In this document: positions 12,514-21,639 of the stretch, in pieces
Layout of the letters: each line of letters begins with the position of its first letter
How positions within the stretch are numbered: position 1 is the stretch's first letter
Position numbers and translations under genes: made by a program
Notes under the pieces: generated by a model
What the model was told of the DNA's origin: nothing
Databases searched by the model: none
The model's input: the letters and a program-made list of their open reading frames with translations, nothing else
Assembly (NCBI RefSeq): GCF_011440375.1
Contig: NZ_JAAOIR010000003.1
Location: 62,001 to 126,000, forward strand
DNA: 64,000 nucleotides
DNA from: Halorubellus sp. JP-L1
Lineage (GTDB): Archaea > Halobacteriota > Halobacteria > Halobacteriales > Natrialbaceae
Reading direction: 5' to 3'

Positions 12514-13863
12514 TTACTGCTCGGTCTCGGGGTGACTCGCCCGTCGGCGTGGGCTGAGGGAGCCGAGGATGACGCGGTCGAGGGGGTCGGGGCCGTGCCT
12601 GTGGACGACGAGGCCGACGTTCGTCGTGAAGACGACGACGGCCGCGGTCAGGGCGATGCCGCCAGCGGCGGCGGTGGGGAGCGTCGTCCACTCGGCGGCG
12701 AGCAGGAGGACGGTACCACCCACCCAGAGGGTGCCGTCGGCGGCGGCGAGCCGGTGGTCGTAGAGGTCGTCGATCATCGGGACGGGCTCGAAGCCCAGGC
12801 GGTCGCTGTAGCGGTCCACCCAGATGATGAACGGGACGATGTGGTAGAGCGTCCCGAGGACGACCGCGCCGAGGACGCCGAGCGCGAGGAGGTGGACGGA
12901 GCCGGCAGCGCCGAACAGGTGCGCTCTCGCGGTGGGGTCGGCGAGCCACGCCGGGCCGGCCGTGACCGCCCACGTGGCGAGTGCGACCGCGACGACGGCG
13001 TAGCGCCGGTGCATGGGTTCCCAGTCGACGCGCATCTCGACGAGCTTCCGTCCGAGGACGACGGCGACCGCGAGTGCGCTCGCTAGCACGAGCAGTCCGC
13101 CGAGTCGTGCCACGATCGCCGAGTCCACGAGCCGACCGCCGGCGAGGAGGACGACGCCGACGGGGTGGGCGACGGCTTCGAACGACTGGAGGCGAAGGTC
13201 CACGTCGTGAAGCTCGGTCTGCGTGAACATCGTCCCGAGCTGGTAGAGCGCGCCGTACACGGTGGTCAGGACGGCGCCGAAGACGGCGACGGTCGCGTGC
13301 GCCTGCACGAGCTGCTCGTGGCCGACGGGGAGCGACGCGGTCGCGGGGTGGGTGAGGTCGACGGCGATCAGGATGCCGAGGAGGGTGAGGACGACGAAGA
13401 ACCCGAGGGCGTACGCGAAGTGTCGTTCGGTCACGTCGTAGTCCTCGAGGGTGGCGAGCGTGCGCGCGACGTTGTACGCGAACGTCCAGAATCCCGCGAG
13501 CATCAGGAGGCCGAAGGCGGGGAGCCACGACGCGGAGCCGAACAGGAGCGTCCCGACGAATCCGGTGACTCCGGCGACGACGAGCACGAGTTGGAGCCTG
13601 GCGAGGCGCTCGGAGTGCAGACTCGTGCCCGACCAGACCGGGACGAACTGCGTCATCGCGCCCATGATCGTCACGCAGATCCAGCCGGCGAACAGCAGGT
13701 GGACCTGCGCGAGCGTGGCGAGGCCGGGGACGAGGTCCGCGACCGCGCCGACGCCGACGAGCGCCCCGGCCGCGAGAAACCCGAGGGCGACGAGGAAGTG
13801 CCGGAGCGGGACGGCGAGCGGGAGGTCGACGTCCGTGTCGATGCCGCCGGGGACGGCGCTCAC
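12514..13863 (-). CDS. Haem-copper oxidase subunit I-like membrane protein
   Basis: A 449-residue protein with about 12 hydrophobic segments. It resembles the catalytic-subunit fold of haem-copper oxidases and NO reductases (cbb3/NorB-like). Histidine-bearing helices are visible: AQVHLLFAGWICVTIMGAM, VQAHATVAVFGAV and LYHIVPFIIWVDRY. The full set of copper or FeB ligands is not obvious, so it may not reduce oxygen or NO itself. It opens a cluster of denitrification-associated genes. The start is GTG at 13863, overlapping the TGA of a 19-codon ORF that begins 38 bases after a CGAACATCTCCG box. Expression is therefore probably tied to the island's regulator. The function is inferred. Confidence 0.75.
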   Translation of the reverse strand: MSAVPGGIDTDVDLPLAVPLRHFLVALGFLAAGALVGVGAVADLVPGLATLAQVHLLFAGWICVTIMGAMTQFVPVWSGTSLHSERLARLQLVLVVAGVTGFVGTLLFGSASWLPAFGLLMLAGFWTFAYNVARTLATLEDYDVTERHFAYALGFFVVLTLLGILIAVDLTHPATASLPVGHEQLVQAHATVAVFGAVLTTVYGALYQLGTMFTQTELHDVDLRLQSFEAVAHPVGVVLLAGGRLVDSAIVARLGGLLVLASALAVAVVLGRKLVEMRVDWEPMHRRYAVVAVALATWAVTAGPAWLADPTARAHLFGAAGSVHLLALGVLGAVVLGTLYHIVPFIIWVDRYSDRLGFEPVPMIDDLYDHRLAAADGTLWVGGTVLLLAAEWTTLPTAAAGGIALTAAVVVFTTNVGLVVHRHGPDPLDRVILGSLSPRRRASHPETEQ

Positions 13864-13919
13864 GCCGCACCACTCGCGCCGTCGGCGTGGGCGCGAGAGA
13901 GTCGATGACTGGCGCTCAT
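13860..13919 (-). CDS. Possible 19-codon leader ORF coupled to the haem-copper-oxidase-like gene
   Basis: MSASHRLSRAHADGASGAA ends in a TGA that overlaps the GTG start of the membrane protein (GTGA). Its ATG lies exactly 38 bases from the regulator box at 13958-13969, the same spacing seen at several other starts in the island. It would be the first codon of a leaderless transcript. Translation is not proven. Confidence 0.35.
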   Translation of the reverse strand: MSASHRLSRAHADGASGAA

Positions 13920-13957: not shown

Positions 13958-13969
13958 CGAACATCTCCG
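13958..13969. promoter_or_regulatory. NarO/DmsR-type box
   Basis: CGAACATCTCCG, a near-match to the palindrome CGAACATGTTCG. It is 38 bases from the leftward ATG at 13919. Confidence 0.6.
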
Positions 13970-14035
13970 CCCGCGTTCCAGCCGACTGAGAACGCGGCTG
14001 CAGGGATTTGTGCGCGAGGCGGCTACCGGTCGGGT

Positions 14036-15130
14036 ATGCGACCGCCAGCGGACACGGCCGAGCGACCGATGGTCCTGATCTGGGAGGTCACGCAGGCCTG
14101 CGAGCTCGCGTGCGAGCACTGCCGGGCGAGCGCGGAACCGGGGCGGCATCCCGACGAGCTATCGACGCGCGAGGGGAAGGCGTTGCTCGACGACGTCCGC
14201 GAGTTCGGCGACGGCCAGCTCGTCGTCCTCTCGGGCGGGGACCCGATGAAGCGCCCGGACCTCGTCGAGCTCGTCGAGTACGGATCCGACGCCGGGCTGT
14301 CGATGACGCTGACGCCGAGCGGGACGAGCGCGCTGACGGGGGACGCGATCGAGGAGCTCGCGGACGCGGGCCTCCGGCGGATGGCGGTGAGTCTCGACGG
14401 GGCGACGCCCGAGCGCCACGACGCCTTCCGTGGCGAGCCGGGGAGCTTCGAGGAGACGCTCCGCGCTGCCAGGGACGCGCAACGGGCGGGGCTCCCGCTC
14501 CAGATCAACACGACGGTCTGTGCGGGGACGGTCGACGACCTGCCGGCGATCGCCGACGTCGTCGCGGACCTGGGGGCCGTGCTCTGGAGCGTGTTCTTCC
14601 TCGTCCCAGTTGGACGGGGGCGCGTACTCGACCCGGTGTCGCCCGAGCGAGCGGAGTCCGTGATGGAGTGGCTCCACGACCGCCGGGGGACCGCTCCGTT
14701 CGGCATCAAGACGACGGAGGCGCCGCACTATCGCCGGGTCGGCCTCCAGCGCCGCGAGGACCGTGTTCGGGAGGATGCGGACGACGGACCGTCCGGGACG
14801 AGGCGGCGTGCCGGCATCGTCGCCGGCGACGGGTTCGCGTTCGTCAGTCACACCGGGGACGTCTATCCCTCGGGGTTCCTGCCGAAGGCGGCCGGGAACG
14901 TTCGCGACGACGACGTCGTGGACGTCTACCGGAACGCGGACCTGTTCGAGGCGCTCCGCGACCGGAGTCGACTCTCCGGGAAGTGCGGCGTCTGCGAGTA
15001 CCGGCACGTCTGCGGCGGGAGTCGGTCGCGGGCGTTCGCGACGACCGGCGACCCGCTCGCGAGCGACCCGCTGTGTAGTTACGTGCCCGAGGAGTGGACG
15101 TCCGCGGACGCGAACGTCGCCGGCGACTGA
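14036..15130 (+). CDS. Radical SAM/SPASM protein
   Basis: A 364-residue protein. The radical SAM cluster motif is CELACEHC (Cys22, 26, 29), followed by a GGDP SAM-binding loop (VLSGGDPMKRPD). A C-terminal SPASM-like region has CGVCEYRHVCGG and a last Cys in DPLCSY. It resembles a sporadic radical SAM/SPASM family related to haem-modifying NirJ and AhbD proteins and to peptide-maturation enzymes. Its place in a nitrogen-oxide respiration island makes tetrapyrrole or cofactor modification plausible, but the substrate is unknown. It is transcribed away from the haem-copper-oxidase-like gene, and both share a 170-base intergenic region. The ATG at 14036 precedes the conserved core by about 12 residues. 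Confidence 0.87.
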   Translation: MRPPADTAERPMVLIWEVTQACELACEHCRASAEPGRHPDELSTREGKALLDDVREFGDGQLVVLSGGDPMKRPDLVELVEYGSDAGLSMTLTPSGTSALTGDAIEELADAGLRRMAVSLDGATPERHDAFRGEPGSFEETLRAARDAQRAGLPLQINTTVCAGTVDDLPAIADVVADLGAVLWSVFFLVPVGRGRVLDPVSPERAESVMEWLHDRRGTAPFGIKTTEAPHYRRVGLQRREDRVREDADDGPSGTRRRAGIVAGDGFAFVSHTGDVYPSGFLPKAAGNVRDDDVVDVYRNADLFEALRDRSRLSGKCGVCEYRHVCGGSRSRAFATTGDPLASDPLCSYVPEEWTSADANVAGD

Positions 15131-15223
15131 CGCAACGTCGCTGCCGAGTGAGGCGCCGTCGCTGCCGACGGACGCGACATCGCCACCGACTGATGCGCCT
15201 GCCGGCCGAAACCCGCGGCGAGG

Positions 15224-15235
15224 CGAACATCTTCG
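15224..15235. promoter_or_regulatory. NarO/DmsR-type box
   Basis: CGAACATCTTCG, ending 38 bases before the ATG at 15274. Confidence 0.65.
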
Positions 15236-15273
15236 GGGAAATCGACAGCCTGCTGTGGGCGAGAGATGGAACT

Positions 15274-15561
15274 ATGAGTGACCTCGACCGCTCGCTGCTG
15301 GAGGGGACGGACGCGCCGACGGACGCGCCGGTCGAAACGCTCGACGTGCGCACGCTCGGGCCGCCCGAGCCGCTCCGGCGGACGCTCGAGCTACTGCCCG
15401 AGCTGGACGACGACGTGGTGCTCGTCCAGTACAACGACCGGGCGCCACAGCACCTCTATCCGAAGCTCGACGACCGCGGCTATCGCTACGAGACGGTCGA
15501 GACGGGCGACGCGACGACGACGGTCGTCTGGACGGACGGCGACCGAAGTGGCGATGAGTGA
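15274..15561 (+). CDS. DUF2249 domain protein
   Basis: A 95-residue soluble protein made of one DUF2249 domain. Its hallmarks are the opening strand TLDVRTLGPPEPLRRT, the DDVVLVQYNDRAPQHLYPKLDDRGY segment and a C-terminal strand. DUF2249 is a small alpha/beta domain related to the TusA/SirA fold, frequent in denitrification and haem-related clusters. Its biochemical role is unproven. The regulator box upstream ends 38 bases before the start. Its stop overlaps the next gene by eight bases, so the two are co-translated. Confidence is high for the gene and low for any function. Confidence 0.85.
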   Translation: MSDLDRSLLEGTDAPTDAPVETLDVRTLGPPEPLRRTLELLPELDDDVVLVQYNDRAPQHLYPKLDDRGYRYETVETGDATTTVVWTDGDRSGDE

Positions 15562-15781
15562 CCGCCCGTCGCCTCTGGTGGACGCTGCAGAGGTCCGCGA
15601 GGACGACGCGGAGATCCGGGCGGACGCCGCGGAGGTCCGAGACGAGCAGGTCGCGCGTGCGCTCCGGCGACTCGACGAGCACGGGGAACTGACCGCGGAG
15701 AAGCGAGCAGTCGTGGAACGGCTCGCGGACCGAATCACCGCAGAAGTCGACGACCTGTTCGACGCCGACGCTCTCTCGTGA
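15554..15781 (+). CDS. Mini protein resembling the glutamyl-tRNA reductase dimerisation tail
   Basis: A 75-residue, highly charged, helical protein. The pattern EVRDEQVARALRRLDEHGELTAEKRAVVERLADRITAEVDDLF resembles the C-terminal dimerisation helices of glutamyl-tRNA reductase (HemA). No catalytic or NADPH domain is present. It overlaps the preceding DUF2249 gene by eight bases, so the two probably work together. A role as a haem-pathway adaptor would fit the island, but this is inference from a short similarity. Confidence 0.7.
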   Translation: MSDRPSPLVDAAEVREDDAEIRADAAEVRDEQVARALRRLDEHGELTAEKRAVVERLADRITAEVDDLFDADALS

Positions 15782-15941
15782 CGACGCCGACGCACGACTG
15801 TGACGACGCCGACGAGACGGGAGACGGCGATACGGGAGACGACGATACCGGGGACGACGACATCGGAGAGAACGTGCGCGCCCCCGATGGGGACGCAGGG
15901 ACGGGTGGGGATGACAGCGCTGGAGCCCTGCTGCGGCGTGG

Positions 15942-16175
15942 CTACTGTTTCGGGAGCGTCGCGACGAACTCCGCGTCGCCGCGGCGCTCGCACGTGTAGT
16001 TCTCGGCGTCGAACGCGTCCACCTCGGCCTGGAACTCGTAGAACAGCGGCTTGGGTTCGTGGTCGTTGACTATCTCGAGGTCTTCGCCGCTGTCGAGCGC
16101 CTCGAAGGCGTCGTGGATCTTCGGGTGTCGCTCTCGCGGCGGTACGTCGCGGAGGTCGAGTGTGGTCGCTGGCAT
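15942..16175 (-). CDS. DUF2249 domain protein
   Basis: A 77-residue DUF2249 protein: TLDLRDVPPRERHPKIHDAF, then a loop with LEIVNDHEPKPLFYEF, then the terminal EFVATLPKQ. It is close to the copy at 20872 (shared ERHPKI/QRHPKI, VNDHEPKPL, EFVATLPK), so the two are paralogues within the island. The CGAAGATGTTCG box at 16216-16227 is 40 bases from its ATG. The preceding gap (15782-15941) holds only a low-complexity Asp/Gly/Thr-coding frame that I do not accept as a gene. Confidence 0.87.
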   Translation of the reverse strand: MPATTLDLRDVPPRERHPKIHDAFEALDSGEDLEIVNDHEPKPLFYEFQAEVDAFDAENYTCERRGDAEFVATLPKQ

Positions 16176-16215
16176 GCAATCTGGACTATCGGCCGGGACA
16201 GCGAAGGCCTTCGTG

Positions 16216-16227
16216 CGAAGATGTTCG
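16216..16227. promoter_or_regulatory. NarO/DmsR-type box
   Basis: CGAAGATGTTCG, 40 bases from the leftward ATG at 16175. Confidence 0.6.
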
Positions 16228-16262
16228 GGTCGGGCTCCGGGGCAACCGGTGCCGCGTCGTGG

Positions 16263-16274
16263 CGAACACGTTCG
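16263..16274. promoter_or_regulatory. NarO/DmsR-type box
   Basis: CGAACACGTTCG, ending 38 bases before the rightward ATG at 16313. With the box at 16216 it forms a divergent pair. Confidence 0.65.
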
Positions 16275-16312
16275 GGGATACCGATAGCCGTACTGGCGAC
16301 GAACGACCCCGT

Positions 16313-16849
16313 ATGGACGTGCCACGCCCGTTCTCGAACGACGGCGACGACGATACGTTCGACCCGTACGACCAGTTCGTCCCGGAGTCGATCCCCGAAC
16401 CGGGGCCGTTCCTCGAGGACCACGACGTCCTGACCGGCCGCGACCACGTCGCGTTCCACCGGCTCGCGCGAGAACTGTTCGAGGACCGCGGGGTGTACGA
16501 CATGACGTTCGGGTACAACCTCGCGCGCCTGAACGTCGACCGCCGGCATCCCGACGCGGGCTTTCGGTACGCCCGCGAGCGCAACGGCGAGCGAGACGAC
16601 GAGCGCGTGCTCCGCGCCGAGTTCACGCCAACGACGGCGTTCTGCCCGCAGAGCGACACGCTCACCGTCGGCGCGATGCGCGCGTTCAACGGCGAGAGCG
16701 ACCGCCACGAGTACGACGACGTACGGGTGCGGGTCGCGCCCATGCACCACGAGGCGACGTCGATCAACGGGAAACTCTACGGGTCCGAGACGGCGTCCAC
16801 GGACGACGACCCTGCGTCGACGACGGAGTCGAGCAGCACGCCCTTCTGA
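16313..16849 (+). CDS. Uncharacterised protein, possibly MIP18/DUF59-like
   Basis: A 178-residue soluble acidic protein. The middle reads FEDRGVYDMTFGYNLARLNVDRRHPD, then LRAEFTPTTAFCPQSDTLTVGAMRAF and RVRVAPMHHEATSINGKLYG. The order, a start like xGVYDMxFxYNL, then a strand with TPTTxFCP before a helix, recalls MIP18/PaaD (DUF59) proteins that serve Fe-S cluster assembly, with one Cys in the expected loop. The match is weak. The regulator box 38 bases upstream places it in the island's regulon. Tails at both ends are disordered. Confidence 0.75.
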   Translation: MDVPRPFSNDGDDDTFDPYDQFVPESIPEPGPFLEDHDVLTGRDHVAFHRLARELFEDRGVYDMTFGYNLARLNVDRRHPDAGFRYARERNGERDDERVLRAEFTPTTAFCPQSDTLTVGAMRAFNGESDRHEYDDVRVRVAPMHHEATSINGKLYGSETASTDDDPASTTESSSTPF

Positions 16850-16880
16850 GGGTCGCGTAGAATCGACCGGGTTCGCCGGA

Positions 16881-17102
16881 TTAGGTGTCGTGGGTGATGC
16901 GGACGTGCCACTCGTCCTGGGCGACCTGCTCGCTCTCGTAGTCGAACCCGCGGTCGGAGAGGACGTCGTACAGCGGCACGGGCTCGAAGCTATTGACGAG
17001 TTCCAGCGTCGCGCCTTCCTCGAGTTCGTCGAGGGCGGCGACGATGTCGCCGAACGGTTCGCCGTCGACTTCGCGGACGTCGAGGACTGTATCGGCCGTC
17101 AT
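16881..17102 (-). CDS. DUF2249 domain protein
   Basis: A 73-residue DUF2249 protein: VLDVREVDGEPFGDIVAALDELEEGATLELVNSFEPVPLYDVLSDRGFDYESEQVAQDEWHVRI is split here only by family landmarks (DVRE start, LVNSFEPVPLY loop, terminal strand). The box at 17142-17153 is 39 bases from its ATG. It is downstream of, and on the same strand as, the Bat-type regulator gene but has its own box. The function is unknown. Confidence 0.85.
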   Translation of the reverse strand: MTADTVLDVREVDGEPFGDIVAALDELEEGATLELVNSFEPVPLYDVLSDRGFDYESEQVAQDEWHVRITHDT

Positions 17103-17141
17103 CGGTACATCGTTCGTCGAGCGAGTGGGTAGCGGTTGTCC

Positions 17142-17153
17142 CGAACACGTTCG
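17142..17153. promoter_or_regulatory. NarO/DmsR-type box
   Basis: CGAACACGTTCG, 39 bases from the leftward ATG at 17102. It also touches the last codon of the regulator gene. Confidence 0.65.
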
Positions 17154-17154
17154 T

Positions 17155-17805
17155 TCATGGCCTGGCGAGGTCGTCGACGTCCTCGTGCTGGACGAAGTCC
17201 TTGACGATCGCCTCCTCGGCGCGGTGGAGCGTGCTGGAGCACGTTGACTTCGCGATGCCGACGCGGTCGGCGAGGTCGGTCAGCGAGCACTCCCGGGGGG
17301 TGTCGTAGTAGCCGGCGTCGACGGCGGCGTCGAGCAGGTCGCGCTGGCGTTCGGTCAGGAGCCGACGGCGGTCGGTCTCCTGGCGGACGTACACGACGTG
17401 GAACGGGATCCCGAACTCCTCGAGTTGCTCGCCGAGCCGGGAGAGCTGGTCGGTCGACGCGGTCACCTCCCACGTCACCGTGCCGTCCCTGATGTCGAAC
17501 GGCATCTCGAGGGGGACGCCCGACCCGCGAGCCGGCATGAGGAGGAGGGGGTCTGCGGTCTCGAACTGGACGAGCGCCTCGTCGTCGCCGTGCTGGAGGA
17601 CGTCGATGCTCGTGATGTCGTCCTCGCCCTCCATGGTTCCGAGGACGGCGTCGGTCGCGTCGCCGTCGATCTCTATCAGCCCGACGCCGGTGAGGCCGTC
17701 GGGGATGGCTGCGAGGACGCGGATCCGCGTCTCCGGGTGCGCTCGCGTCACCCGGCCGAGCCAGATGCCTTCGGGGACGGTGAGTTCGAGTTTCGCGTTG
17801 GGCAT
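17155..17805 (-). CDS. Bat-type HTH_10 transcription regulator (DmsR/NarO-like)
   Basis: A 216-residue regulator with an N-terminal sensory half of about 150 residues and a C-terminal HTH_10 domain (LLTERQRDLLDAAVDAGYYDTP, then VGIAKSTCSSTLHRAEEAIV). It resembles haloarchaeal regulators of anaerobic respiration. The N-terminus lacks the cysteine cluster described for the oxygen sensor NarO, so it is closer to the DmsR type, and the input signal is unclear. A perfect CGAACATGTTCG box lies 38 bases before its ATG, so it is probably autoregulated or under a NarO encoded elsewhere. It is the best local candidate for reading the island's boxes. Confidence 0.87.
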   Translation of the reverse strand: MPNAKLELTVPEGIWLGRVTRAHPETRIRVLAAIPDGLTGVGLIEIDGDATDAVLGTMEGEDDITSIDVLQHGDDEALVQFETADPLLLMPARGSGVPLEMPFDIRDGTVTWEVTASTDQLSRLGEQLEEFGIPFHVVYVRQETDRRRLLTERQRDLLDAAVDAGYYDTPRECSLTDLADRVGIAKSTCSSTLHRAEEAIVKDFVQHEDVDDLARP

Positions 17806-17843
17806 ACGAACGTGTCGTCGGCCCACGAACCCATCAATGTTGT

Positions 17844-17855
17844 CGAACATGTTCG
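17844..17855. promoter_or_regulatory. NarO/DmsR-type box, perfect palindrome
   Basis: CGAACATGTTCG, 38 bases from the leftward ATG of the Bat-type regulator at 17805. The rightward gene at 17927 is 71 bases away. Confidence 0.75.
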
Positions 17856-17926
17856 GCTCGGTTGGTCTCGGCGGACGCGTTTCCGTTCCGGAAGGTTCGA
17901 CTAGGCGGGGTCGCGTAGGTAGACGT

Positions 17927-18340
17927 ATGGAAACCGTCACTGTGTCGAGGACGGTCGACGTGGACGCCGATAGGGTTCGAGCGGCGATGACGGACGTCGG
18001 TCCGTTCATGCGCGCCGCGGAGTTCTCCGAGGTGACGGTCGACGGCGACGTCGTCCACATCGCGAACCGGGTCGGACTGGCGACGATCGAACTGACGCTG
18101 GAGGTCGTCGACGAACCGGACACGGTCCTGACCTACGAGCAGCGAGACGGCATCTTCGAGGAGATGGTGACGCGGTACACGCTGGAAGAGACCCCCGACG
18201 GCGTCGAGGTCGAGGCGACCACGGAGTTCGCGGTCCAGGCGCGACTCGTCGGGCCGCTCCTCGACGCGACGGTCGTCTCGCGCCAGCGGCGCCGCGAACT
18301 GGACGCACAGTTCGACTACCTCGCCTCGCTCGCGGACTGA
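17927..18340 (+). CDS. SRPBCC (START/polyketide cyclase-like) family protein
   Basis: A 137-residue protein with the helix-grip fold pattern of SRPBCC proteins. It opens METVTVSRTVDVDADRVRAAM, has an antiparallel sheet (TYEQRDGIFEEMVTRYTLEET) and closes with a long amphipathic helix after ARLVGPLLDATVVSRQRRREL. These proteins bind small hydrophobic ligands or haem-like cofactors in a cavity. The ligand here is unknown. It lies between the regulator and norB genes. It has no regulator box at the standard distance. Confidence 0.82.
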   Translation: METVTVSRTVDVDADRVRAAMTDVGPFMRAAEFSEVTVDGDVVHIANRVGLATIELTLEVVDEPDTVLTYEQRDGIFEEMVTRYTLEETPDGVEVEATTEFAVQARLVGPLLDATVVSRQRRRELDAQFDYLASLAD

Positions 18341-18424
18341 CCGCACCCGACCGACCCAACTCGTCTAGGCGTCCTAACTACTCTTACAGTGTGATTCGTT
18401 ACCAGACAGCGACGGCGTGGTGAT

Positions 18425-18436
18425 CGAACATGTTGG
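18425..18436. promoter_or_regulatory. NarO/DmsR-type box of norB
   Basis: CGAACATGTTGG, ending 38 bases before the norB ATG. A CATTAACG element sits about 28 bases before the start. Confidence 0.7.
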
Positions 18437-18474
18437 GAACATCATTAACGCTCGACAACTCACAATCGTCGGGC

Positions 18475-20760
18475 ATGGAGCTCACGCGAAAGACGATCGC
18501 GAAGTTCATCGCGGCGGCGTTCCTGCTCAACCTCGTCGTGATGGGTGCTGGTGCGTGGTTCGCGTACCAGGAGGCGCCGCCGATCCCCGAACGGGTGGAG
18601 GGGCCGGACGGCGAGACGGTCGTGACGGACGTCCAGATCAGGGACGGGAAGCGGGCGTTCCAGCGGAACGGGTTGATGAACCACGGGTCGATCCTCGGGA
18701 ACGGCGCGTACTACGGCGAGGACTACACCGCGGACGCGCTCGAACTGAAGACCGAGCACATGCGGACGTACTACGCGCAGGAGCGGTACGGGGCCGCGTA
18801 CGACGAACTCGGGTCGGCGGAGCAGGCGGCAGTCGACGCCGACGTGAAGGCCGACCTCGAGAGCGACTACGACGGAGGAACCATCGAGTACTCCGCCGCC
18901 GAGCTCTACGCGCACGAGCAGGTGCGAGAGGAGTACGTCGAGCGCTACAACGAGGGGAGTCACGACCGCGGCGTCCCCGAGGGGATGATCGAGAGCGAGG
19001 AGGACGCTCGCGAGTTCGCGGACTTCGCGATGTGGACGGCGTGGTTCTCCCACACCGACCGCCCGGGTGGCGATCACTCGTACACGAACGAGTGGCCGTA
19101 CGCGCCCGCCGCCGGGAACGACGCCACGGGTGCCGCGATGACGTGGAGCGTCGTCGCGATGGTCCTCCTGGTCGCCGGTGCCGGGTTCGGCATCTGGCTG
19201 TACAACTCGGTTCGACTCCCCGAACCGTCGACGGAGGGGCTCTCGGTCCCGGAACCGGGGGACGTGAGCGTCTTCCCGAGCCAGCGGTCGGCGCTGCGGT
19301 TCGTGCCGGTCGCCGCCGGACTGTTCCTCGCGCAGGTCCTACTCGGTGGCCTGATCGCGCACTTCTACATCGAGCGCGCCGGGTTCTTCGGCGTCGAGGA
19401 GCTGTTCGGCGTTCACATCCTCCAGATCTTGCCGTTCGCGATCGCGAAGACGTGGCACATCGACCTCGGGATCCTCTGGATTGCCGCGACGTGGCTCGGC
19501 GCGGGCCTGTTCCTCCCGCCGTTGCTGACCGGACACGAGCCCAGGCACCAGTCGACGCTCGTCGACGGCCTGCTCGGTGCGATCGTCGTCGTCACCGTCG
19601 GTGGCCTCGGCGGCATCTGGCTCGGCGCGAACGGCTACCTCGACGGGTCGCTGTGGTGGTTGCTCGGTAATGAGGGGCTCGAGTATCTCGAGGTCGGGAA
19701 GATCTGGCAGGCGGGCCTGCTCGCCGGGTTCGGACTCTGGGCCGTCCTCTCCATTCGCGGTCTGAAACCGCTGCTCGACCGCGAGCCCGTGTACGGACTC
19801 GCGCACATGATCCTGTACGCCGGCGGCTCCATCGCGGTGCTGTTCACCGCCGGGTTCTTCTTCACGCCGACGACGAACATCGCGGTGACGGAGTTCTGGC
19901 GCTGGTGGGTCGTCCACATGTGGGTCGAGGGCGCGTTCGAGTTCTTCATCGTGGCCATCGTCGGGCTGACGCTGGTGTCGATGAACCTCCTGAAGCGCCG
20001 CAGCGCCGAGAAGGCGGTGATGCTCCAGGCGTTACTCGTGATGAGTACGGGCGTCATCGGCGTCTCCCACCACTACTGGTGGGTCGGGATGCCGGACATG
20101 TGGGTGCCGATCGGGAGCGTGTTCTCGACGCTCGAACTCATCCCGCTCGTGTTCATCCTCTACGAGGCCCTCGGCCAGTATCGCGCGATGACGGAGACCG
20201 GGACGTTCCCGTACCGGCTCCCGTTCATGTTCATCGTCGCGAGCGGCGTCTGGAACTTCGTCGGCGCGGGCGTGCTCGGGTTCTTCATCAACCTCCCGCT
20301 CATCAACTACTACGAGCACGGGACGTACCTGACCGTCGGGCACGCGCACGCGGCGATGTTCGGCGCGTTCGGGTTCCTCGCGCTCGGGATGGTGACGTAC
20401 ATGCTCCAGATCTCGATCGAGCCGAGTCGCTGGGACGGGTCGTGGCTCCGTGCGGCGTTCTGGTGCTGGAACGTCGGCCTGGCACTCATGGTGTTCGTGT
20501 CCGTCCTCCCGGTCGGATTCCTCCAGCTCGAGGTCGCGTTCACCGAGAGCTACGCCGCTGCGAGGAGTCTCGCGTTCTACGATCAGCCGATCGTCCAGAA
20601 CCTGTTCTGGGCGCGGCTGCCCGGTGACACGCTCATCATCCTCGGAACGACGATTTACGCCGCGGACCTCGTCCGCAAGCGCTTCGTGCTCCGGGAGTCC
20701 GAGGACGACCCGTCCGTCGACGACATGGCGGTCGCCGAGGGCGTCCTCAACGACGACTGA
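18475..20760 (+). CDS. norB: Quinol-dependent nitric oxide reductase (qNOR)
   Basis: A 761-residue single-subunit NO reductase reducing two NO to N2O with quinol electrons in the cell membrane. The N-terminal part has one helix and a cytochrome-c-like, haem-free outer domain (about residues 35-210). It is followed by the multi-helix catalytic domain. Ligand-bearing segments are visible: KTWHIDLGILW, VVHMWVEGAFEFF with the NOR-type glutamates, GVSHHYWWVGMP and VGHAHAAMFGAFG. The length fits qNOR rather than two-subunit cNOR. The ATG at 18475 was chosen over one at 18430 because it begins the hydrophobic N-terminus and sits 38 bases from the regulator box. A DUF2249 gene follows. Confidence 0.96.
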   Translation: MELTRKTIAKFIAAAFLLNLVVMGAGAWFAYQEAPPIPERVEGPDGETVVTDVQIRDGKRAFQRNGLMNHGSILGNGAYYGEDYTADALELKTEHMRTYYAQERYGAAYDELGSAEQAAVDADVKADLESDYDGGTIEYSAAELYAHEQVREEYVERYNEGSHDRGVPEGMIESEEDAREFADFAMWTAWFSHTDRPGGDHSYTNEWPYAPAAGNDATGAAMTWSVVAMVLLVAGAGFGIWLYNSVRLPEPSTEGLSVPEPGDVSVFPSQRSALRFVPVAAGLFLAQVLLGGLIAHFYIERAGFFGVEELFGVHILQILPFAIAKTWHIDLGILWIAATWLGAGLFLPPLLTGHEPRHQSTLVDGLLGAIVVVTVGGLGGIWLGANGYLDGSLWWLLGNEGLEYLEVGKIWQAGLLAGFGLWAVLSIRGLKPLLDREPVYGLAHMILYAGGSIAVLFTAGFFFTPTTNIAVTEFWRWWVVHMWVEGAFEFFIVAIVGLTLVSMNLLKRRSAEKAVMLQALLVMSTGVIGVSHHYWWVGMPDMWVPIGSVFSTLELIPLVFILYEALGQYRAMTETGTFPYRLPFMFIVASGVWNFVGAGVLGFFINLPLINYYEHGTYLTVGHAHAAMFGAFGFLALGMVTYMLQISIEPSRWDGSWLRAAFWCWNVGLALMVFVSVLPVGFLQLEVAFTESYAAARSLAFYDQPIVQNLFWARLPGDTLIILGTTIYAADLVRKRFVLRESEDDPSVDDMAVAEGVLNDD

Positions 20761-20818
20761 ATCGACTCCCCCTGGAAGCCGAGTGGACTGACTCCCGTTC
20801 GGGGAAGCCGAGCGAGAG

Positions 20819-20830
20819 CGAACATCTTCG
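20819..20830. promoter_or_regulatory. NarO/DmsR-type box
   Basis: CGAACATCTTCG, ending 41 bases before the ATG at 20872. Confidence 0.65.
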
Positions 20831-20871
20831 CGACAACCGACTCGGGGGGAGCGCCCCGAGATGTAGTCGTA

Positions 20872-21105
20872 ATGTCCGAACGGCAGCTCGACCTGCGCGA
20901 GATTCCGCCGCCGCAACGGCATCCGAAGATCTTCGACGCGTTCGAGGACCTCGACAGCGGGGAGGCGCTGACGTTGGTCAACGACCACGAGCCGAAGCCG
21001 CTCTACCACCAGATGACGGCAGAGATCGAGTCGTTCGACGCGGAGGGGTACACGGTCGACCGCATCGGCCCGAACGAGTTCGTCGCGACGCTCCCGAAGT
21101 TGTAA
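20872..21105 (+). CDS. DUF2249 domain protein
   Basis: A 77-residue DUF2249 protein (LDLREIPPPQRHPKIFDAF, then LVNDHEPKPLYHQM and the end EFVATLPKL), nearly a duplicate of the copy at 15942-16175. It follows norB by 111 bases but has its own regulator box, so it is independently expressed under the same signal. The repeated pairing of this domain with NO-handling genes suggests a role in NO or haem handling, but no reaction is established. Confidence 0.88.
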   Translation: MSERQLDLREIPPPQRHPKIFDAFEDLDSGEALTLVNDHEPKPLYHQMTAEIESFDAEGYTVDRIGPNEFVATLPKL

Positions 21106-21108
21106 GGT

Positions 21109-21120
21109 GGAATATGTTCG
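21109..21120. promoter_or_regulatory. Degenerate NarO/DmsR-type box
   Basis: GGAATATGTTCG, one good half-site (TGTTCG), 40 bases before the ATG at 21161. Confidence 0.45.
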
Positions 21121-21160: not shown

Positions 21161-21262
21161 ATGAGTTTAGGCCAACCTAAAAAATGGTGGGTGGATGGTT
21201 CGAGGATACTCCGTCCGACGGCCCGTCGAACGCGACGTCCGCGAACGGAGGGATCTGCGTGA
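21161..21262 (+). CDS. Possible 33-codon leader ORF coupled to the cupin gene
   Basis: The ORF begins MSLGQPKKWWVDG and ends at a TGA that overlaps the GTG start of the cupin gene (GTGA). Its ATG lies 40 bases from the degenerate regulator box. The arrangement is the same as at 13860-13919. The iron-box-like palindrome falls inside its first codons. Translation is unproven. Confidence 0.3.
   Translation: MSLGQPKKWWVDGSRILRPTARRTRRPRTEGSA
21166..21181. promoter_or_regulatory. DtxR-family-like palindrome
   Basis: TTTAGGCCAACCTAAA is a perfect 16-base interrupted palindrome resembling the TTAGG...CCTAA operators of DtxR/SirR/Idr metal regulators. It lies just upstream of the cupin pair. Confidence 0.5.
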
Positions 21263-21639
21263 CGAAGACGAGCTTCGACGCGGAGCGAACCTACGGCGAC
21301 GACAAGTTCACTGCGGTCGAGGTCGACCGTAGCGACCGGATGAAGGTCGTCTGCGGCTACTTCGAGCCCGGTCAGTTCATCCCAGTGCACGCCCCGGCGA
21401 GCGACGTCGCGATCCACGTCCGCTCCGGGACTGGACTCGTCCGCGACGGCGACGACGAGCACCGCGTCGAACCGGGCGACGTCGTCGTCGTCGACGCCGA
21501 CACCGACCGCGGAATCAGGGCCGGCGAGGACTCGCGGCTCGAGGCCCTCCTCGTCACCAGCCCACCGCCCACCGACGCCGAGCACGAACCGGTCCGCGAA
21601 GGACTCCGAACGAACGACTTCGAACCCAAGAACTCATGA
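21259..21639 (+). CDS. Cupin-domain protein
   Basis: A 126-residue single-domain cupin, with first-motif remnants GYFEPGQFIPVHAPASDVAIHVRSGTGLVRDG and the second-motif glycine PGDVVVVDADTDRGIRA. It keeps HA at the metal-ligand position but lacks the full HxH set, so metal binding is uncertain. GTG at 21259 is preferred. An ATG at 21184 in frame would add 25 residues unlike the family. It overlaps the next cupin gene by four bases (ATGA). Both lie after the norB/DUF2249 genes, with an iron-type palindrome and a regulator half-box upstream. A role in nitrogen-oxide stress is possible but unproven. Confidence 0.78.
   Translation: MTKTSFDAERTYGDDKFTAVEVDRSDRMKVVCGYFEPGQFIPVHAPASDVAIHVRSGTGLVRDGDDEHRVEPGDVVVVDADTDRGIRAGEDSRLEALLVTSPPPTDAEHEPVREGLRTNDFEPKNS

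Follow-up and report, generated by a model that had tools for sequence, protein, structure and literature searches.

Comparison of box positions, promoter layout and gene content across haloarchaeal genomes suggests, with a probability that we put at about three in four, that the palindromic boxes preceding a nitric oxide reductase gene and its neighbours are operators of a single activator, for which the Bat-type protein of the same cluster (17155-17805) is the likeliest candidate. The window analysed here is 64 kb long and belongs to contig C3 (369 kb) of a genome of 3.76 Mb. Pattern matching confirmed all nine boxes that the first-pass annotation had located in it, with 0 to 2 mismatches to CGAACATGTTCG (Table 1), and the claim that each lies 38 to 41 nt before an ATG was borne out. 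Seven of these ATGs open real genes, three on the minus and four on the plus strand; those following the boxes at 13958 and 21109 open short frames. As 3.3% of random window positions have, 38 to 41 nt away on either side, an ATG that opens an ORF of 60 aa or more, seven such boxes out of nine would be expected by chance with a probability of about 2e-9. The window promoters with the palindrome include those of norB, four DUF2249 genes and the Bat-type regulator.

Table 1. Boxes, genes and short frames of the cluster, with the peptide gene found upstream on the same contig (window coordinates unless stated; gaps in nt from box end to ATG)
Feature	Position	Strand	Remarks
449-aa hydrophobic (membrane-type) protein	12514-13863	-	GTG start; box-linked family in relatives; no match in Pfam or NCBIfam
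19-codon ORF, MSASHRLSRAHADGASGAA then stop	13860-13919	-	Stop overlaps GTG start at 13863 as GTGA
Box CGGAGATGTTCG	13958-13969	-	2 mismatches; gap 38, to ATG 13919
Radical SAM/SPASM protein	14036-15130	+	TIGR04053
Box CGAACATCTTCG	15224-15235	+	Gap 38
DUF2249 protein, 95 aa	15274-15561	+	Behind box 15224
DUF2249 protein, 77 aa	15942-16175	-	Behind box 16216
Box CGAACATCTTCG	16216-16227	-	Gap 40
Box CGAACACGTTCG	16263-16274	+	Gap 38
178-aa protein, family unassigned	16313-16849	+	Behind box 16263
DUF2249 protein, 73 aa	16881-17102	-	Behind box 17142
Box CGAACGTGTTCG	17142-17153	-	Gap 39
Bat-type regulator, 216 aa	17155-17805	-	Proposed box-binding protein
Perfect box CGAACATGTTCG	17844-17855	-	Gap 38; promoter of the regulator gene itself
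SRPBCC/polyketide_cyc2 protein	17927-18340	+	Divergent from regulator gene
Box CGAACATGTTGG	18425-18436	+	Gap 38
NO reductase (qNOR type, NorB), 761 aa	18475-20760	+	Behind box 18425
Box CGAACATCTTCG	20819-20830	+	Gap 41
DUF2249 protein, 77 aa	20872-21105	+	Behind box 20819
Box GGAATATGTTCG	21109-21120	+	Gap 40, to ATG 21161
33-codon leader ORF	21161-21262	+	Ends in GTGA over cupin GTG start
Cupin protein	21259-21639	+	GTG start
CGCGG peptide gene	L034:2588-2893 (C3:47487-47792)		About 14.6 kb before the window

The regulon had been labelled NarO/DmsR-type at first reading, a label that the cluster regulator does not justify. This protein carries an HTH_10 domain (PF04967; E 5.8e-18) together with PF15915; no match to DmsR_N (PF24277) was obtained even at E 1, and there is no N-terminal cysteine cluster, with no cysteine before residue 173 and all cysteines confined to the HTH. 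DmsR of Halobacterium, a short Bat-type activator of anaerobic respiration, is alike in kind and differs by combining PF24277 with HTH_10. Also related in kind is NarO of Haloferax volcanii, an HTH_10 denitrification regulator of the Bat family lacking PAS/GAF domains, for which a similar motif has been reported. NarO belongs among the cysteine-motif regulators, which have an N-terminal cysteine cluster; on this description the window protein would differ from it. A search for annotated NarO on plasmids returned generic HTH annotations only. The predicted structure of the window regulator (pLDDT 85, pTM 0.58) gave no informative fold match, and searching solved structures with its sequence yielded nothing useful.

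The proposal that this gene encodes the likely binder is supported, at the level of comparative data, by the box in its own promoter and by the co-occurrence of box and gene. Among 80 named orthologues, 62 carry the box in the regulator's promoter; the other 18 have none at 36 to 50 nt with up to 2 mismatches. The gene is near-universal in the class: at E <1e-40, a cut-off chosen after the list had been inspected, some 252 of the 292 genomes have an orthologue. The exact box with an ATG at 36 to 42 nt was found in 128 of the 252 genomes with an orthologue versus 2 of the 40 without (Fisher 6e-9, the genomes being related so that counts across genomes or loci are not independent). G006, one of these two, does have a diverged relative (E 1.5e-26). 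With a looser box pattern the two groups are less well separated (5.45 versus 2.45 matches per genome, many of them apparently coding).

A different protein could be responsible: a NarO/DmsR-type regulator (DmsR_N plus HTH_10) encoded elsewhere might bind the box, the cluster regulator being merely a target. We consider this unlikely, even though a true member of this class exists in the same genome (L058, at C2:714196; DmsR_N E 3.8e-39) and the box precedes DmsR-like genes in 5 of 22 homologues from relatives. No box lies within 60 nt of the start of the C2 gene. As many as 31 of the 40 genomes lacking an orthologue of the cluster regulator have DmsR_N, yet the exact, well-spaced box occurs in only one of these 31; conversely, G021 and G157 have the box and no DmsR_N. 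In Haloferax volcanii, NarO controls denitrification and a similar motif is found, according to the account of Hattori et al. 2016 given in PMC10062603; the latter paper also reports that NarO and its homologues are absent from H. mediterranei, though the box is present there. Among genomes without norB, the box was seen in 11 of 20 with an orthologue of the cluster regulator versus 1 of 37 without; for the norB and DmsR_N comparisons, the 40 genomes with an orthologue were picked by hand. The contrast between the groups persists where norB is missing and is not explained by DmsR_N proteins; the window regulator is the likeliest candidate for binding the box. The genome contains 36 HTH_10 matches, a strikingly large Bat-type family, and a paralogue could consequently share the box.

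The fixed spacing noted in the window recurs in other haloarchaea; it was examined in 80 named loci around regulator orthologues and in the set of 292 genomes. In the 80 loci, with the regulators' own promoters left out, the distance between box and ATG has a sharp peak at 37 to 41 nt and a mode of 38 nt: 122 ATG starts lie at 36 to 41 nt and 75 at exactly 38, while every other 3-nt bin below 60 holds 0 to 6. Alignment of 145 promoters at gap 38 gave the box, GGR, A at -33, YA at -28/-27, A at -10 and a pyrimidine at -1, positions being counted from the ATG and not from mapped start sites. A TATA-like element at about -27 and, at the ATG or close to it, a purine start preceded by a pyrimidine are features of leaderless haloarchaeal promoters. 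The target promoters accordingly look leaderless, with a weak TATA and the box immediately 5' of BRE/TATA, in keeping with the layout that the first-pass annotation had deduced from spacing; a poor TATA is as expected for activator-dependent promoters.

The promoters of the regulator genes have an additional element. In 28 of them a second copy of the box sits close to the start codon, over the predicted start site, 34 to 37 bp from the first (centre to centre) in 27 cases; none of 132 other targets has a second box near the ATG. This arrangement suggests a self-limiting loop, by which the regulator probably turns itself down in many orthologues. Some regulator genes (L175, L179, L181, L182 and others) have yet another box about 80 to 90 nt upstream, besides those at 38 nt and near the ATG. 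Since a box over the start site is placed as a repressor site would be, we envisaged that the regulator might repress all its targets until low oxygen or the presence of nitrogen oxides releases it. Such a role strikes us as quite improbable, for the box stands 5' of BRE/TATA in all 132 other targets, the TATA elements of targets are weak, and mutating the box in H. mediterranei lowers the activity of the nos and nor promoters (PMC10062603), which fits activation.

Sites with at most 1 mismatch number 37 in the whole genome. Scanning these for a suitably spaced ATG, as the first-pass annotation had advised, added one site to the seven boxes from 15224 to 20819, at C3:47437; the other near-matches checked had no ATG gene at that distance. 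The gene behind this site, with a gap of 38 nt, encodes a putative rSAM-modified peptide of the CGCGG family (TIGR03995, E 6.6e-39) and is followed on the same contig by a TIGR04347 pseudo-rSAM gene. Taken with the window boxes, this site places the well-spaced copies (at most 1 mismatch outside the window) in a single island that spans about 36 kb of C3. The components of the putative CGCGG/TIGR04053/TIGR04347 rSAM-RiPP system are divided between the window, which has TIGR04053, and a position about 14 kb before it; no description of this system as part of a denitrification regulon was found in the literature searched.

Box counts in relatives delimit the regulon further. The box precedes the CGCGG peptide gene in 26 of 27 loci (at 37 to 42 nt), the gene of the 178-aa protein in 20 of 21 homologues, DUF2249 genes in 28 of 31 (95-aa protein) and 30 of 34 (73-aa protein), the 449-aa protein gene in 17 of 20 loci (at 37 to 41 nt) and the cupin gene in 6 of 7 (at 37 to 38 nt). 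From these comparisons, the conserved core of the predicted regulon is made up of the DUF2249 proteins, the 178-aa protein, the 449-aa membrane-type protein and the CGCGG putative RiPP. The grouping of uncharacterised genes with norB in one regulon stands, with the reservation that norB is itself the exception in spacing: in 12 of 14 relatives (L125, L128, L129, L132, L161 and others) its box forms a second fixed class at 65 to 67 nt from the ATG, unlike the 38 nt of the window gene. This suggests that norB of relatives has a leader of about 28 nt that the window gene lacks. The reading of the boxes as chance palindromes of a GC-rich genome, with the spacing a product of the reader's selection, is refuted by the recurring 38-nt peak around the 80 loci of other species and by the family-wise box counts and promoter tallies in relatives: loose matches are indeed frequent (596 genome-wide with at most 2 mismatches; 107 in the window with at most 3, about 39 being expected), and the near-matches of this genome outside the island lack the spacing.

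The two boxes whose ATGs open short frames can be understood from the same comparison. Homologues of the 449-aa and cupin genes start near the residues of the window GTG codons and have the box directly before the gene, at 37 to 41 nt (17 of 20 and 6 of 7, respectively). In the window, a short leader frame thus appears to separate the leaderless start from either gene. Leader and gene may be translationally coupled through the GTGA overlap. The plus-strand radical SAM gene, whose start is 66 nt from the box at 13958, was considered as a target of that box and rejected because its homologues lack a well-placed box in all but 1 of 40 cases. Within the leader frame that precedes the cupin gene there is also a palindrome, TTTAGGCCAACCTAAA (21166-21181), which we take to resemble a metal-repressor site of the DtxR/SirR type; by this likeness, the cupin gene may answer to metals as well.

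A system of this kind is already known, since the motif, the effect of its mutation and the DUF2249/Bat-type cluster have been published. In Haloferax mediterranei, a nirK/nor/DUF2249/Bat-type cluster was described with the motif CGAAYATDKTYG (PMC10062603, PMC11218638), and a 12.5-kb cluster with eight boxes is induced under denitrification (PMC11218638). The protein binding the box is stated there to be unknown, NarO being absent (PMC10062603, PMC11218638). The two systems share the palindrome, nor, DUF2249 genes, a Bat-like regulator with its own box, the upstream position of the box and activation. They differ in that the boxes of nir, nor and nos in H. mediterranei are reported to be separated from the ATG by 79, 66 and 69 nt (PMC10062603), as against 38 to 41 nt for all nine boxes here, nor included; the distance of 66 nt recalls the 65 to 67 class of norB relatives. 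The window also has two leader ORFs that the H. mediterranei regulon does not, and no nirK was seen in the part of the window cluster examined, unlike the cluster of that species. To this the present comparison adds the spacing rule, the double box, a connection with a putative RiPP and evidence that points to a single regulator family.

In the mechanism that we favour, a dimer of the Bat-type regulator (dimeric because the box is palindromic) would occupy the region from about -50 to -39, immediately 5' of BRE and a weak TATA box. From there it would bring TFB/TBP to the leaderless promoters that serve NO-reduction genes and accessory genes. The signal would be anoxia or a nitrogen oxide, by analogy with reporter and RNA-seq data from H. 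mediterranei, and in many orthologues the regulator would probably limit itself through the second box on the start site. We infer binding and activation from what the in silico analysis provides, namely the sites, their spacing and layout, the conserved box before the regulator gene itself, and the co-occurrence of box and regulator. A broader generalisation, for which we judge the odds to be even, is that a distinct and near-universal haloarchaeal regulator family, separate from NarO/DmsR, uses the box at -50 to -39 to activate a regulon of denitrification genes, DUF2249 genes and the CGCGG peptide, and in many genera curbs its own expression by means of a second copy some 35 bp further downstream, over its own start site.

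If correct, this reading would name the box-binding protein, comparative evidence pointing to one small gene as the binder of the H. mediterranei-type box, and would connect nitrogen-oxide metabolism with a putative radical-SAM-modified peptide. It links this putative RiPP and several uncharacterised proteins to the regulon, and allows likely sites to be told apart from background matches. The promoter rule, 38 nt from the end of the box to a leaderless ATG, is precise and predicts both targets and their start codons elsewhere among the haloarchaea.
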